A DNA stretch of 64,000 nucleotides from Candidatus Schekmanbacteria bacterium (GTDB taxonomy: Bacteria; Schekmanbacteria; GWA2-38-11; J061). Each line of letters starts with the position of its first letter. Positions within the stretch are counted from its first letter, which is position 1. The translations under genes and the position numbers were made by a program. Where the stretch lies: contig JACRJM010000002.1 of NCBI GenBank assembly GCA_016219965.1, positions 112,233 to 176,232 of the forward strand. The letters run 5' to 3'. Under the pieces are notes generated by a model. It was given only the letters and a program-made list of their open reading frames with translations, did not search any database and was not told where the DNA came from. Below, one piece after another: positions 49,133-55,013 of this stretch.

Positions 49133-49654
49133 ATGGCTGATGATTTACAGGATCAAATGGAAAAAGATTTCGACAAAGTGCTTAAGCAGAAGGCAAAGAG
49201 ACTTAACAAGGAAGAGCTTGAGGCAGCTATCACTGATTTTCTTGCAAAGCATATTCTCTGCACGCTCGCCACTTGCGACAATAATGAGCCGCGTGCCACT
49301 CCAATAAGATATAGGAGCGAAGGAATGAATATATTTTTTCTCACAGAAGGAGGAGGAAAGGTCAAGAACATGCTTTCCAATCCTAAAGTGTCTGTCGGGA
49401 TACACGGCGAATACAGCGGATTTGACAGCGTCAAGGGTTTGCAGCTCTGGGGAACAGCGGAAGTGATAGAGCCCGGCGATACCGAGCGGTATAAAGCAGC
49501 ACGAAAGGCAATAAGGTCTGAGGAAAGAGAAGACCTGAAAAAACTCGGAGACCTTCCAATAAGAGACAAGCTTAAAGCTGTCAAGATAACAGTAACAAAG
49601 GCAAGGTATCTGAATATTCCGGAAGGGATACTGAATCAGGTCTGGGAAGCGTAA
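49133..49654 (+). CDS. Pyridoxamine 5'-phosphate oxidase-fold flavoprotein
   Basis: The 173-residue protein has the split-barrel FMN fold: FLAKHILCTLATCDNNEPRA near residue 38, IRYRSEGMNIFFLTEGGGK near 64, NPKVSVGIHGEY near 83 and GLQLWGTAEVIEPGD near 101. Such proteins reduce F420, heme or flavin substrates, or are uncharacterised, so the true reaction is unknown. AGGAG lies upstream of the ATG. It follows the AddA-like gene by 44 bases, but nothing shows a functional link. Confidence 0.8.
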   Translation: MADDLQDQMEKDFDKVLKQKAKRLNKEELEAAITDFLAKHILCTLATCDNNEPRATPIRYRSEGMNIFFLTEGGGKVKNMLSNPKVSVGIHGEYSGFDSVKGLQLWGTAEVIEPGDTERYKAARKAIRSEEREDLKKLGDLPIRDKLKAVKITVTKARYLNIPEGILNQVWEA

Positions 49655-49716
49655 AACTTTCCGCTATCACGTCATTTAATTATTTTATTGCGCTTCTTTT
49701 CCACCCTGTGTAAAAT

Positions 49717-49735
49717 ATGGAAATGATAATTCCAT
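49717..49735. promoter_or_regulatory. Small inverted repeat before the DUF4143 ATPase gene
   Basis: ATGGAA (49717-49722) and TTCCAT (49730-49735) are perfect arms around 7 bases. ATGGAAAT recurs at the gene start (49749), forming a direct repeat. This could be an operator or a by-product of AT-rich sequence. Confidence 0.3.
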
Positions 49736-49748
49736 TTTTGGACTTAAT

Positions 49749-50882
49749 ATGGAAATAATAAAGCGAATTTTCAAACCCGGGAAACAGAGTTTTTTTCTCC
49801 TTGGCCCAAGAGGTACAGGGAAGTCCACTCTGATAAAAAACATTTTCCCCAACACCCTTTATATAGATTTGCTCCTTCCTGATATTTTCAGAAGTTATAG
49901 TGCTCGCCCCGAAAGGCTCATAGAGATAGTTCATGCTAATACGGATAAAAAAGTTGTAGTCATAGATGAAATCCAGAAAGCCCCGCAGTTACTTGAAGTT
50001 GTGCATAGCCTGATTGAAGAGAAAAAGGATCGCCAGTTTATACTTACCGGCTCAAGCGCAAGAAAATTAAAAAAGACAGGCGTGAATCTCCTTGCCGGGC
50101 GTGTCATAATGAAACACATGCATCCGTTTGTTGCAGCGGAACTGTCAGGGAAGTTTAATCTGAACGCCGCTCTGCAAAATGGCATGATACCGGTAGTCTT
50201 AGACAGTATCAATCCCGTTGATTCTTTACATGCCTATGTTGACCTCTATATAAGGGAAGAAGTTCAGATGGAGGGGCTGACCAGGAATATAGGGAACTTT
50301 TCAAGGTTTCTGGAGGCAGTGAGTTTTTCTCACGGCTCAGTATTAAATATCAGTAATATTTCAAGAGAGTGCCATATTGAAAGGAAGGTGGTAGAAGGCT
50401 ACGTCAATATTCTGGAAGATCTGCTCCTGTCTTTCAGAATACCTGTATTTACAAGAAGAGCAAAGCGCACTGTGTCGCAGCATCCTAAATTTTATTTTTT
50501 TGATGCTGGTATCTATAACTGCCTGCGTCCGTCAGGCCCGCTTGACCGTCCGCAGGAAAAAAGCGGCGTTGCGCTTGAGGGGCTTGTCGCCCAGCATTTA
50601 AAGGCATGGATTGATTATAATCATCCCGACTGCCGGCTGTTTTTCTGGAGAACCAGTTCCGGCACGGAAATAGATTTCATCGTCTATGGCAAAGGAATAT
50701 TCTGGGCAATTGAGGTAAAGAACACAACAACTGTGCGACCAGAAGACATAAGGTCTTTAAAAACATTCGGTGATGACTATCCTGAAGCAAAAAAATTCTT
50801 TATATATCACGGCAAAGAAAAACTTAAGCGTGATGGCATTCTCATTATGCCTTGCACTGAATTCCTGATGACACTTTCGTGA
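49749..50882 (+). CDS. AAA ATPase with DUF4143 domain
   Basis: The 377-residue protein has a P-loop GPRGTGKST near residue 20, Walker B VVVIDEIQKAPQLL near 67, and FILTGSSARKLK near 100. A C-terminal DUF4143 region has FYFFDAGIYNCL near 250 and RTSSGTEIDFIV near 303, including nuclease-like acidic residues and FWAIEVKNTT. This widespread family is common in genome islands; its function is unknown. The gene looks intact. The following bases hold fragments of another family in decay. Confidence 0.88.
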   Translation: MEIIKRIFKPGKQSFFLLGPRGTGKSTLIKNIFPNTLYIDLLLPDIFRSYSARPERLIEIVHANTDKKVVVIDEIQKAPQLLEVVHSLIEEKKDRQFILTGSSARKLKKTGVNLLAGRVIMKHMHPFVAAELSGKFNLNAALQNGMIPVVLDSINPVDSLHAYVDLYIREEVQMEGLTRNIGNFSRFLEAVSFSHGSVLNISNISRECHIERKVVEGYVNILEDLLLSFRIPVFTRRAKRTVSQHPKFYFFDAGIYNCLRPSGPLDRPQEKSGVALEGLVAQHLKAWIDYNHPDCRLFFWRTSSGTEIDFIVYGKGIFWAIEVKNTTTVRPEDIRSLKTFGDDYPEAKKFFIYHGKEKLKRDGILIMPCTEFLMTLS

Positions 50883-51013
50883 TTGCTTTTTCCATTTTTG
50901 AAACAGATGACGACCGCGGGTATTTCATGGTAATGATTAGAATTCATAAGAAGGCAAATATTTCAGCACAAGCTTTGGCTGAGATAATTGGGATATCCTC
51001 AATGGATAAGTAA
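50883..51013 (+). pseudogene. Fragment of AlbA_2/RecG-like ATP-binding protein (piece 1)
   Basis: Directly after the DUF4143 stop the sequence reads IFETDDDRGYFMVMIRIHKK and then a short segment ending in a stop near 51013, with no start codon. FETDDDR-x-YF is the typical C-terminal wording of AlbA_2-domain (RecG-like) proteins. Only about 43 codons remain, so this is a relic. Confidence 0.6.
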
Positions 51014-51041
51014 GGGTTTAATAGAATAGGTTTGGATCATT

Positions 51042-51437
51042 ATGACTCAAGAAGAAATCTTTGCGGCATTATCGTGGGCTGATGAACTGGGATCAGGAGT
51101 TCGCAATATAACAAAATATATACCGCATTACGTTCATTCTTTGGCAACTCCTATTTTTCAAGAAGATGAACATTTTATGACAGAAATTCCTTTGCGTATT
51201 TTTATTTGGGGTGTCGCAGCAGACCAATTCATTATTACATACTTTAATCATATCCCTCATGAAATCGGGGCTGATTTGACGGCAAAAATGAAAAATATTC
51301 CGGTAGATTATGATATTGAATCTATGGGATACAATGTGTTTATAGAACACATTGTATTGCGCTGGATCGAAATGGGGGGTAAGTTGCCGAACTCAAGAGT
51401 CTTTGAAAATAAAGGACTTAAAGAAATAATTTCTTAA
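51042..51437 (+). pseudogene. Fragment of AlbA_2/RecG-like protein joined to unknown sequence (piece 2)
   Basis: The frame encodes 131 residues. Residues 10-50 (LSWADELGSGVRNITKYIPH, later FQEDEHFMTEIPL) match the ELGSG...KY segment and following region of AlbA_2-domain proteins. After residue 50 the sequence (RIFIWGVAADQFIITYFNHI onward) is unrelated to that family as far as I can tell. The piece is out of order with its neighbours. I call it a pseudogene, but a short expressed fusion cannot be excluded. Confidence 0.55.
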
Positions 51438-51471
51438 AAAGGGGTAAGTGCACTTCAAAAAAGGGGTAAGT
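51436..51471 (+). repeat. 14-bp direct repeats around a palindrome
   Basis: AAAAAGGGGTAAGT occurs at 51436-51449 and 51458-51471. Between and overlapping them is the palindrome AAGTGCACTT (51446-51455). Similar AAAAAGGGGT wording accompanies REP-associated transposase genes in other bacteria, from memory, but no transposase is present here. Confidence 0.5.
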
Positions 51472-51517
51472 TGTTTGATAAGCGGACAGAGTATTTTTTT
51501 CAGTTTTACTAAGTGTT

Positions 51518-51715
51518 TTGGATGCTATTTTTCTTTCGGATTTGGCCAAAAATCTTGATTACAGTAAGCGTGATAAATTTAAAGAAATGTATATCGATCC
51601 TTTGATGAAAGATGGATTACTGGCATATACTATTCCTGATAAACCAACATCATCCAAGCAGCAATATGTCATCACAGAAAAGGGGAAACGCTTTCTGGGG
51701 GGCTTTGAGATATAA
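51518..51715 (+). pseudogene. Fragment of AlbA_2/RecG-like protein, C-terminal winged helix (piece 3)
   Basis: The 65-residue frame reads LAKNLDYSKRDKFKEMYIDP, then GLLAYTIPDKPTSSKQQYVI and TEKGKRFLGG. This is the C-terminal winged-helix end of AlbA_2/RecG-like proteins. It lacks everything upstream and has no ribosome-binding site. With pieces 1 and 2 it marks one or more decayed copies of this family. Confidence 0.6.
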
Positions 51716-51772
51716 CATGAAGAAAAAAAGCAAACTCAAAATATACTTACTCGCGGAGAGATATAAAAACCT

Positions 51773-51883
51773 ATGGCAAGGATGATTCCGGCAACTATAT
51801 CGCTTCGCACAGAAAGTAAAGCTGAAGAACTGCTTTATTATTCAATGCGGGATTCCCTTCACTATCAATCCAATAAATCATGA
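51773..51883 (+). pseudogene. N-terminal fragment of a NERD-domain protein
   Basis: Thirty-six codons start MARMIPATISLRTESKAEEL, the characteristic N-terminus of NERD-type nuclease/helicase proteins, and then stop at TGA (51881-51883). The stop overlaps the start of the HNH gene (ATGA at 51880-51883). The rest of the NERD gene is missing, which suggests replacement of its body by the HNH gene. Only the first 20 residues or so are recognisable. Confidence 0.55.
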
Positions 51884-52851
51884 TACAAGATTACATAAAA
51901 TCCTTTTCCAAGCTTAACCGTGCACCGGGGAAGGTATGGGGTTCTGCGACAAAAAACCGTGCGCCGCACAAGCCTATTTTCCTCCTTGCATTGCTGGATT
52001 TATTCTCAAGAAAATCAATTCAACGTAATTTCATTGAATTGACTCCGGAGTTCAATGATCTTTTCTTAAGCTACTGGCAGAAGGTTGTCTCTCTGGGACA
52101 ACGAAGTAGTATTGCTTTCCCGTTTTTTCACATGAAGGGCGAAAAATTTTGGCATCTTATAGCTGTACCGGGTAAAGAATCTTCTTTAGCTCACACAAAC
52201 AGAATTTCAACAATGGCACAGCTAAAGGAGCTTGTTCTTGGTGCGAGCATAGATGAAGAATTGTTTGCGAATTTACAATCTGAGGAAAATCGTAACATTC
52301 TGCGGGGAATACTTATACATACATATTTTTCAGATGAAGTTCAGCAATCCCTTAAAGAGCAGTGCGTGATTAATAATGAAGCATTTAATTACAGCCTGAA
52401 TATCCTGAATAAATCTCATCAGGAATTTATAAAAGAACAGCCAATTGAAGATAACTATCAATCAGCCGTTCGTGATCAGGGGTTTCGTCGTATTGTGGTC
52501 ATGACTTACAATCACAGATGCGCCCTCTGCGGTGTGCGGATAATAACTGTTGACGGTCACACCGTTGTTGAAGCCGCTCATATCATTCCGTGGAGTATCA
52601 GCCATAACGACGACATACGGAACGGGCTGGCATTGTGCAGGCTTTGCCACTGGGCATTTGACGAAGGAATGCTCGGGGTTTCAGAGAATTATGAAGTTAT
52701 CACTGACAAACTTATCACCAACAGAGACAACTATCCTGGTTTTCTGTTAAATCTTTCTGATAGGGGGATTATTGGACCTGAGGATAAGACTCTCTGGCCC
52801 TCGCAGGAGTCGCTTTCGTGGCATAGGAAAACCTTCGCATTGAAACGCTGA
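51880..52851 (+). CDS. HNH endonuclease (HNH_2-type, restriction-like)
   Basis: The 323-residue protein has an N-terminal DNA-recognition-like region (GSATKNRAPHKPIFLLALLD near residue 21, as in many HNH_2 proteins). A C-terminal HNH domain has CALCGVRI near 213, EAAHIIPWS near 230, and NGLALCRLCHWAFDEGMLGV near 247. Two Cys pairs bind zinc and AAHI-x-PW carries the catalytic histidine. Relatives are annotated as restriction endonucleases, some modification-dependent; the target here is unknown. Its start overlaps the stop of a truncated NERD frame. A damaged copy of its last 21 codons lies 1.6 kb downstream. Confidence 0.85.
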   Translation: MIQDYIKSFSKLNRAPGKVWGSATKNRAPHKPIFLLALLDLFSRKSIQRNFIELTPEFNDLFLSYWQKVVSLGQRSSIAFPFFHMKGEKFWHLIAVPGKESSLAHTNRISTMAQLKELVLGASIDEELFANLQSEENRNILRGILIHTYFSDEVQQSLKEQCVINNEAFNYSLNILNKSHQEFIKEQPIEDNYQSAVRDQGFRRIVVMTYNHRCALCGVRIITVDGHTVVEAAHIIPWSISHNDDIRNGLALCRLCHWAFDEGMLGVSENYEVITDKLITNRDNYPGFLLNLSDRGIIGPEDKTLWPSQESLSWHRKTFALKR

Positions 52852-52971
52852 AAAATACTACTTTAAAAGTTATAGAATAATACTTTAGGGCAGATTAAAA
52901 AATCCAAGATTGCAACAATTATTAAAACAAGTAATCTTTACAATTATTCAATTAAGATAGTTAGCCTAACA

Positions 52972-53559
52972 ATGGAAATAAAAAACAGATACGAAGAACT
53001 AAAAAATAAGGTTTCAGATCGCAAAGAGCCATTCAATGAAATTATAAATTTCTTGGAGAATAAAACTAATTGGCTGACCAGTCCTGCAAGTACGAGGTTC
53101 CATCTTGCGAAAAAAAGGGGGCTCTTAGAGCATAGCGTTGGTGTAGCTGAAACTACTTTAAAGTTCAGAAGCGCACTTGCGCCGGAAATTTCTGAAGAAA
53201 GCTGTATCATTGTAGGTCTTTTTCATGATGTTGGAAAAATAGGAATGCCCGGGAAACCTCTTTATCTGCCAAATGATAGTGAATGGGAAATAAAAAAAAG
53301 AGGTATTTATTACAAGATAAATCCGGATGTTGTCCCAATGGGGCTTGCTTTAAGAAGTCTGTATATAGTGAGCAAATATATGCCGCTGTCTGATGCTGAA
53401 GCGCAGGCTATTGCTTATCATGACGGGCAGTATATCGAAGATAATAAAATAATAGCGCATAAAGAGGAACCTCTGACACTTCTGCTTCATTGGGCTGACT
53501 ATTGGACAGCGCATATATATGAAGATGGCAGAAAATATTTCTCTTTGTTATCTTTTTAA
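52972..53559 (+). CDS. HD-domain hydrolase
   Basis: The 195-residue protein has the HD metal site: LLEHSVGV near residue 53, IIVGLFHDVGKIG near 81, YHDGQ near 149 and LLLHWADYWTAH near 167. It resembles small HD hydrolases common in mobile or defence regions, acting on nucleotides or phosphodiesters. No other domain is present. The ATG lacks a clear ribosome-binding site. It sits between the HNH gene and an MNT/HEPN pair, within the segment bounded by two copies of the HNH 3' end. Confidence 0.8.
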   Translation: MEIKNRYEELKNKVSDRKEPFNEIINFLENKTNWLTSPASTRFHLAKKRGLLEHSVGVAETTLKFRSALAPEISEESCIIVGLFHDVGKIGMPGKPLYLPNDSEWEIKKRGIYYKINPDVVPMGLALRSLYIVSKYMPLSDAEAQAIAYHDGQYIEDNKIIAHKEEPLTLLLHWADYWTAHIYEDGRKYFSLLSF

Positions 53560-53604
53560 GATAATATAATAATTGATATGGCCCTACAAATTAAATGAAA
53601 AATC

Positions 53605-53952
53605 ATGAAACAACTAAAGGATTATAAAATTCTGAGTAAATCAGAAAAAAGTATGCTGGAAAGATGTTGCGAAGCTATTAAAGCAATTGACCCTTCTGCA
53701 GAAGTTATCCTTTTTGGTTCAAGAGCCAGAGGTGATGCTGAATCAGAATCAGACTATGATTTACTTATATTAACAGACGATGAAGCATCGCTTAAAAAAG
53801 AAGATACCTTCCTTGAGCAGCTATTCCCTATAGAGCTTGATACTGGCGCAGTATTCACGGTTATTCTAACAAATAGGAAAGATTGGAGTTCCTCATTGTA
53901 TGAGGCAATGCCGCTGTATCAGAATATCAGAAGGGAAGGCGTTGTTTTATGA
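53605..53952 (+). CDS. MNT-type nucleotidyltransferase (antitoxin-like)
   Basis: The 115-residue protein has the minimal nucleotidyltransferase core GSRARGDAESESDYDLLI near residue 36, in which the two aspartates of SDYD bind metal. In MNT/HEPN modules the MNT partner blocks the HEPN toxin, often by adding AMP to it. The gene overlaps the HEPN gene by 4 bases (ATGA), the normal arrangement of such pairs. Confidence 0.88.
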   Translation: MKQLKDYKILSKSEKSMLERCCEAIKAIDPSAEVILFGSRARGDAESESDYDLLILTDDEASLKKEDTFLEQLFPIELDTGAVFTVILTNRKDWSSSLYEAMPLYQNIRREGVVL

Positions 53953-54347
53953 AGGAAGAAGTTAAGGCTTTAATAAAATATCGTCTTGAGCGAGCTTATG
54001 AATCCCTTGATGAAGCTAAACTTCTTCTGGAACAAGAGCATGCCAATACCTTTGTTAACCGTCTTTATTATGCCTGCTTTTATGCTGTTTCTGCCTTGTT
54101 TGTTATGAATGGGCTTTCTTCTTCAAAGCACAGTGGAGTTAGGTCTCTTTTTCATAAAAACTTCGTCAAATCTGCTTTGATAGAACAAGAATTGGGGAAG
54201 TTTTATGACAGGTTATTCAACAGAAGACAGAAGGGTGACTACGCCGATTTTGTTCGCTTTGACGTGAGCGAGGTCAGCGATTGGTATGAAAAGGCAAAAG
54301 AATTTGTTGAAACGATAGAACTGCTCATTAAAAAAAATAGCCAATAA
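53949..54347 (+). CDS. HEPN-domain protein (toxin-like, UPF0332 type)
   Basis: The 132-residue helical protein has the pattern YRLERAYESLDEAKLLLEQ, NRLYYACFYAVSALF and HSGVRSLFHKNFV. The canonical R-x4-6-H RNase motif is not seen in the usual C-terminal place, where RRQKGDYADF stands. It therefore belongs to the UPF0332-like branch, and RNase activity is not certain. It is translationally coupled to the MNT gene, so a toxin-antitoxin role is probable. Confidence 0.82.
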   Translation: MKEEVKALIKYRLERAYESLDEAKLLLEQEHANTFVNRLYYACFYAVSALFVMNGLSSSKHSGVRSLFHKNFVKSALIEQELGKFYDRLFNRRQKGDYADFVRFDVSEVSDWYEKAKEFVETIELLIKKNSQ

Positions 54348-54384
54348 ATAAACTTTAAAAGAGTTTCTAAAAGCGAACCATAAT

Positions 54385-54447
54385 AAAACTATCTGGTCTT
54401 TGCAGGACTTTCTTTTGTGACACCGGGTAGCCTTCGCATTGAAAGTT
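54385..54447 (+). pseudogene. 21-codon relic of a second HNH endonuclease 3' end
   Basis: In one frame this reads KTIWSLQDFLL, a TGA stop, then HRVAFALKV. The intact HNH gene ends KTLWPSQESLSWHRKTFALK (from 52786). About 11 of 21 positions are identical without gaps, and the TGA replaces the TGG for tryptophan. CCTTCGCATTGAAA is identical in both (52832-52845 and 54431-54444). Confidence 0.65.
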
Positions 54448-54455
54448 AAAGCAAC

Positions 54456-55013
54456 CTATTGAGAATCTGCTGACTTCTTCCTGAACATTGCAAGCCTGTC
54501 AATTGCTGTTACGCAGAGGAATGTGATGGTGCTGCCTGTCAATGCGCCTGCAATGACATCTGAAGGATAATGAACTCCCAGATACATTCGCGATATTGCT
54601 ACTAACACAGCAAGGCTTATGAAGAATGCTTTGTACCGCGGAAACTTCATGGAGAAGAAAATCCCCATTGCAAAGGCTGCTGTTGCGTGTCCTGAAGGGA
54701 AAGAGCGGTCGTAAAGATATGAACCTATCACATTAACCCAGTCGAGTGAAGTTGCAGGCCTCGGGCGGTTAAAAAATACTTTGAGTTGATGAGATGCAAT
54801 CTGCGAAAAATACATGCTTACAAGAAATGAGAATGTGTAATAGAGTTTTTGTTCCCTTGCAAAATAAATACTTATAAGCCCTGCAATAAGGACCACCGGG
54901 AAGAGAGCCCCTGCATTGGTTATGATTGGCATGAGAAAATCTAATACAGGATTACTGATGCTTATGTTGAAAAAAAATAATATTGCTGAGTCTATTTTAA
55001 ATAGCAATTCCAT
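54456..55013 (-). CDS. PAP2-family membrane phosphatase
   Basis: The 185-residue protein has about five membrane segments and the three phosphatase motifs: KVFFNRPRP near residue 73, PSGHATAAF near 105, and SRMYLGVHYPSD near 140. These form the catalytic centre with its His and Arg residues. The family includes lipid phosphatases that act on phosphatidic acid or undecaprenyl pyrophosphate; the latter would fit peptidoglycan recycling but cannot be told from sequence. It is convergent with the MNT/HEPN side and lies 16 bases after uvrA on the same strand. Confidence 0.88.
   Translation of the reverse strand: MELLFKIDSAILFFFNISISNPVLDFLMPIITNAGALFPVVLIAGLISIYFAREQKLYYTFSFLVSMYFSQIASHQLKVFFNRPRPATSLDWVNVIGSYLYDRSFPSGHATAAFAMGIFFSMKFPRYKAFFISLAVLVAISRMYLGVHYPSDVIAGALTGSTITFLCVTAIDRLAMFRKKSADSQ

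Follow-up and report, generated by a model that had tools for sequence, protein, structure and literature searches.

Proteins of the AlbA_2/Schlafen type are ATP-binding proteins (PF04326 + PF13749 + PF21247) in which, in five of five full-length references, a SLFN_AlbA_2 domain is followed by HATPase_c_4 and then by Fic-like_C. The SBD-HNH phosphorothioate-dependent endonucleases (EcoWI, SprMcrA; NF045808) carry a sulfur-binding domain at the N terminus and an HNH domain at the C terminus. The parts of the literature seen describe the sulfur pocket (PMC6224610) and a motif of EcoWI and its homologs that comprises KP-LL, PF and W together with an HR/HK and a YP motif, with fewer than 3.6% of the predicted enzymes near dnd clusters (PMC7461809). 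A third described group, the NERD-domain helicases, has nuclease and helicase parts in one protein. Accessory or defence islands in which whole and broken accessory genes adjoin, and which correspond to an empty site in a relative, are a matter of general knowledge. The portions of the literature seen on decayed AlbA_2 genes, on decayed defence islands and on DUF4143 held nothing relevant to the present case.

The locus described here lies in a 64,000-nucleotide stretch of DNA (the window) from a Candidatus Schekmanbacteria bacterium. The kilobase at 50883-51883 is very probably decayed coding DNA within a 4.8-kb accessory block, which separates two genes that adjoin in a related genome (G001); its pieces are those identified below, and it would have been formed by arrivals and then by deletions that joined what was left. 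The likeness to accessory and defence islands as generally known lies in the mixture of whole and broken accessory genes at a spot empty in the relative; the block differs from them in its small size (4.8 kb) and in that no mobility gene was seen. An initial annotation of this kilobase had described broken pieces beside an intact DUF4143 ATPase and an HNH gene, and we recovered all of these in the same places, with both neighbours whole by profile. The features are as follows.

49655..54455, no strand: accessory block of 4,801 bp, flanked by the PNPOx-like gene and PAP2; G001 is without it
49749..50882, + strand: DUF4143 ATPase, intact (Pfam: DUF4143 6.1e-31, AAA_14 6.6e-24)
50885..51040, + strand: piece 1, probable AlbA_2-type scrap in which the FETDDDRGYF strand is followed by part of a helix-turn-helix; it has one stop (51011-51013)
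51054..51197, + strand: piece 2, assigned by alignment to the HATPase_c_4 end (GSG to IPL) of an AlbA_2 protein (E 3.7e-8, 48% identity)
51198..51499, + strand: segment X, unrelated to AlbA_2, coding-like as far as 51434 in the frame of piece 2; right edge approximate, ~300 bp
51329..51357, no strand: perfect palindrome in X with arms of 12 bp and a loop of 5 nt
51500..51715, + strand: piece 3, assigned by profile to the C-terminal winged helix (Fic-like_C, 1.9e-12) of an AlbA_2 protein, with its stop
51773..51883, + strand: piece 4, the beginning of a NERD-helicase gene, with a stop that lies over the HNH start
51880..52851, + strand: putative SBD-HNH-like endonuclease gene, intact (HNH_2 1.4e-12 in Pfam; SBDHga1 7.7e-13; nine relatives aligned)
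52972..53559, + strand: HD-domain protein (Pfam HD 1.4e-5)
53605..53952, + strand: MNT-like nucleotidyltransferase (Pfam NTP_transf_2 3.8e-12)
53949..54347, + strand: HEPN protein (Pfam HEPN 7e-19)
54383..54444, + strand: remnant of the end of a second HNH gene (76% identity to 52784-52845), with an in-frame TGA

G001 was the sole other genome of the same family to be compared, and the sample of the phylum comprised four genomes, our own included. In G001 the stop codons of the PNPOx-like gene and of PAP2 abut with 0 bases between them, where the window has 4,801 bp, and the order of genes runs from the end of an AddA-like gene through the PNPOx-like gene (66%) and PAP2 (44%) to uvrA (77%). 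A second UvrA-like gene of our own genome (G000:C14:126510-129248) reads with one TGA inside the frame. Since both PNPOx and PAP2 are missing next to uvrA in the stretches from G002 and G003, these genomes do not polarise gain here against loss in G001, and a gain here would rest on parsimony. The initial annotation had proposed to reconstruct the history from close relatives, an approach that yielded the empty site in G001 and, given these two genomes, not the direction of the change. It had also called the region a graveyard of phage-defence or mobile-type genes: the decayed pieces do lie in a block that G001 is without, and a phage-defence role of the lost genes and their carriage by a mobile element are conjectural. 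The Pfam scan found no integrase or transposase family among the nine island proteins and pieces covered, and no flanking repeats of at least 14 bp were found around the block. Rfam families were likewise absent from 49600-54700. Several abrupt junctions within 1 kb might suggest that the mosaic is an error of assembly; this stretch, however, lies inside the contig, is present in a single copy in the genome and is made of pieces with in-frame codon usage, and we regard such an error as extremely improbable.

The pieces most readily recognised are the third and the second. Piece 3 scored 47.3 bits against Fic-like_C, for which the Pfam cut-off is 27, and judged by this profile it is certainly the Fic-like_C end of an AlbA_2-type protein. 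A tblastn search with it returned 20 plasmid records, annotated there as Fic family (9), RNA-binding-domain (4) and ATP-binding (2) genes or left unannotated (5). Piece 2 aligns with AlbA_2-type proteins over residues 5-53 (best foreign match E 3.7e-8, 48% identity) and the homology ends there, in agreement with the earlier remark that this piece turns into unrelated sequence. Its match to the Pfam family HATPase_c_4 is below the cut-off (E 0.14), with only the end of the domain present; from the alignments, its first part is certainly of AlbA_2 type and would correspond to the HATPase_c_4 end. The piece 2 ORF matched 27 of 386 genomes at E <= 0.1, our own among them, and the AlbA_2 comparison took in 9 (L038-L046) of 20 loci listed among these matches, the nine having AlbA_2-type open frames of 250-524 codons. 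No small-protein relative of piece 2 was found in genome contigs, and plasmids gave one AlbA_2 match (E 0.08), which speaks against this piece being a small protein conserved as such, a possibility that the initial annotation had itself raised for the pieces. AlbA_2 relatives in viral contigs amounted to one locus in one search and to 0 in another. The family DUF302 was considered for piece 2 (Pfam E 0.0012, below the cut-off) and rejected: the match spans the junction, and neither side gives it in a separate scan. DUF302 genes were absent at E <= 0.001 from all four genomes of the phylum.

When 20 AlbA_2-like proteins were searched against the 1783 stop-to-stop fragments of the window (E <= 0.05), 17 matched piece 2 and/or piece 3 (11 matched piece 2, 14 piece 3 and eight both), while three matched none. 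The eight with both have piece 2 followed by piece 3 in the normal order, and no further window fragment was matched. The order of domains in the references, taken with these 8 of 20 double matches, indicates that piece 3 directly continues piece 2 in a single type of protein, with X now between them. The SLFN_AlbA_2 domain is absent from the pieces; since our own genome has none at E <= 0.001 (5 of 14 controls were positive), the front of the AlbA_2 genes is gone. Pieces 2 and 3 resemble AlbA_2/Schlafen-type proteins in matching the HATPase_c_4 end and Fic-like_C in the right order, and differ from them in being without the front two thirds, in the interruption by X and in making no working gene. 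Stops and frame changes lie between pieces 1, 2 and 3, leaving no single uninterrupted frame. Elsewhere in our own genome, an intact frame of 540 codons (L034 1381-3000, on contig C4) has DUF4062, HATPase_c_4 and Fic-like_C, with an end 49% identical to piece 3.

Piece 1 was harder to place. With a profile of four AlbA_2 sequences, which has the strand FETDED, it ranked second among the 1783 fragments (E 0.0056), after piece 3 (1.4e-10). Among 21 single-protein queries (the 20 AlbA_2-like proteins and L037), 14 listed the fragment, of which one ranked it second (E 0.2) and 13 ranked it 39th or worse; L037 is one of the four sequences in the profile, yet alone it ranks piece 1 39th or worse. 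The match to HTH_24 is below the Pfam cut-off (E 0.038), and tblastn of piece 1 in plasmids gave no match. We consider piece 1 a probable scrap of an AlbA_2-type gene, so that of the three AlbA_2/RecG-like pieces first proposed, the searches confirm pieces 2 and 3 and leave piece 1 weaker, with its profile match and its poor showing against single proteins. Piece 1 fits the end of the ATPase domain, which piece 2 also covers, and two AlbA_2 genes are therefore likely to have left pieces. Most likely there are two AlbA_2 gene tails in a row, with piece 1 from the second gene. The initial annotation had held that the AlbA_2 pieces are not in a simple order; this can be set aside, as pieces 2 and 3 stand in the order normal for one gene and piece 1 duplicates the position of piece 2.

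Piece 4 had been read as a 36-codon NERD N-terminus whose stop lies over the HNH start, and the comparison with G001 agrees. Over residues 1-26 it shares 50% identity with the beginning of a G001 frame of 555 codons (E 0.0042), the protein of which has NERD at 1.2e-17 and helicase-type domains, and the PADLOC NERD-helicase model aligns residues 1-25 on 1-25 (E 0.017). Its stop codon (51881-51883) and the start of the HNH gene (51880) overlap. No Pfam family was found in the 36 codons, so there is no NERD nuclease or helicase domain, and searches in plasmids gave no match. The likeness to the NERD-domain helicases consists of the match between these first 26 residues and the start of the G001 protein; unlike them, piece 4 is cut after 36 codons, with the nuclease and helicase parts gone.

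Segment X has no Pfam match at E <= 10, no PDB match at E <= 10, no phage match at E <= 1 and no relative in viral contigs, genome contigs, plasmids or the 386 genomes; the best PHROGs matches reached only E 0.06-0.08. Nine loci inspected among the rows over X in the 386 genomes (E 0.01-0.1; L055 and rows without a locus were left out) look like chance. The first 79 codons of X are open in the frame of piece 2, which was the case in 10 of 3000 dinucleotide shuffles, and its codon score of 0.17 exceeds the 99th percentile for off-frame windows (0.02) and falls slightly short of the 5th percentile for in-frame windows (0.186). X is likely to be the end of some gene. As a consequence of this open stretch, the ORF at 51042-51437 runs for 131 codons across the junction of piece 2 and X, and it might be read as a young chimeric gene, expressed, in which the end of an AlbA_2 ATPase continues, in frame, into the C-terminal part of some unknown protein. 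The length of the ORF, the rarity of shuffles in which the X part stays open and the codon score all favour such a fusion. It has, however, no relative in genome contigs, plasmids or the 386 genomes, its ATPase domain is reduced to the last 48 residues, and X may merely retain the codon usage of its source gene; an AlphaFold model of the 131 amino acids from the single sequence had a mean pLDDT of 37 with no confident fold, which is weak evidence. We therefore judge an expressed chimeric gene to be highly improbable, and give as little credence to the stronger form of the idea, namely a new small protein made of an AlbA_2 ATPase end and an undescribed family X that is under selection in a working island with the downstream SBD-HNH nuclease. 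Annotators should be warned that debris is a likelier reading of this ORF, and of the other short ORFs in the region, than new small proteins.

The palindrome within X is the only perfect hairpin with 12-bp arms and a loop of 3-8 nt in the window. As RNA, X has a more stable predicted fold than any of 100 shuffles (z -3.46), and the palindrome is among the predicted pairs. Our guess would be that it was made by a template switch during decay. Two exact copies of AAAAAGGGGTAAGT stand at 51436-51449 and 51458-51471, 22 bp apart. We considered a REP or transposon family as their source and rejected it, as the 13-base core occurs twice in the genome, each time at this locus, compared to three occurrences of the reversed pattern. 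A longer, 19-base form of the pattern was matched once in genome contigs, where it falls within an ORF of 298 codons on a WOR-3 contig, and viral contigs gave 0 matches.

A fifth relic, which the initial annotation overlooked, closes the block on its far side, with 11 bp separating it from the stop codon of PAP2. This tail of 62 bp matches 52784-52845, close to where the HNH gene ends, with an E value of 1e-6, and 47 of the 62 positions agree compared to at most 32 in 300 shuffles. The relic bears on how the block came about. The mosaic could have resulted from one arrival of a cluster of several genes (AlbA_2 genes, NERD-helicase and HNH) that was then eroded by deletions, rather than from repeated insertions. 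This would account for all of the recognised pieces being on the + strand and for each AlbA_2 tail being in the normal order, but X and the second HNH tail, with its divergence of 24% from the first, are at least equally compatible with repeated arrivals. Furthermore, no related cluster was found, and eight surroundings of HNH relatives had no annotated AlbA_2 (RNA-binding-domain) gene alongside. We consider a single arrival possible, if somewhat doubtful. The claim that genes were inserted and deleted in succession stands with respect to gene loss by pieces; the insertions may have been repeated, or may have been a single arrival with later deletions.

In the explanation that we prefer, arrivals followed by joining deletions, accessory genes of the kinds that serve in defence or conflict would have arrived at one spot, and deletions would have partly removed them, joining the ends of different genes. 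The genes lost would be the AlbA_2 genes, one unknown gene (X), the NERD-helicase and the second HNH gene, and those for DUF4143, SBD-HNH, HD and MNT-HEPN would have survived whole. What the data show directly is the homology of the pieces and the empty site in G001; the number, order and direction of these events, and a defence role for the lost genes, are what we infer. Standing against this explanation are the ORF that is open over the junction, the codon-like character of X, the weak match of piece 1 and the failure to find a mark of insertion. The gene fragments most likely do nothing. The mosaic is ordinary in kind and nothing categorically new; its interest is as a small, readable case of the turnover of defence-type accessory genes, in which less than 5 kb brings together whole genes and the joined ends of others, with the corresponding site empty in a relative.

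The HNH gene that follows piece 4 likely encodes a predicted DNA-cutting enzyme resembling the SBD-HNH phosphorothioate-dependent restriction enzymes. Its protein aligns over 98% with the best relative, and residues 7-152, the first half, align with the sulfur-binding domain SBDHga1 (8h0l; E 7.7e-13), on which a literature search found nothing. It carries H30-K31-P32, L35-L36, F80-P81-F82 and W91, which by eye fit the motif as given in the part of PMC7461809 that was seen, with M85 in place of a motif L and F in place of the Y of YP. In an alignment with nine relatives, taken from 92 matching plasmid records, H234, N248 and H257 are invariant in 10 of 10 sequences. Since the protein scored 130.7 bits against the curated model NF045808 and did not reach its cut-off of 180, we refer to it as SBD-HNH-like. 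It thus shares with EcoWI and SprMcrA the N-terminal SBDHga1 match, the C-terminal HNH and the motif, and differs from them in falling below that cut-off and in being known here from its sequence. The gene is absent from the three other genomes of the phylum, and DndC was found in none of the four, our own included, where 0 of 14 controls passed the family cut-off either. Of the nine HNH relatives whose surroundings were read, two have dnd genes nearby. The nearest relative (43%) is one that lies beside dnd genes, on a Chlorohelix plasmid (L021, 5992-12957), where it adjoins dndB, a DndE-family gene, dndD and dndC, a rare neighbourhood.
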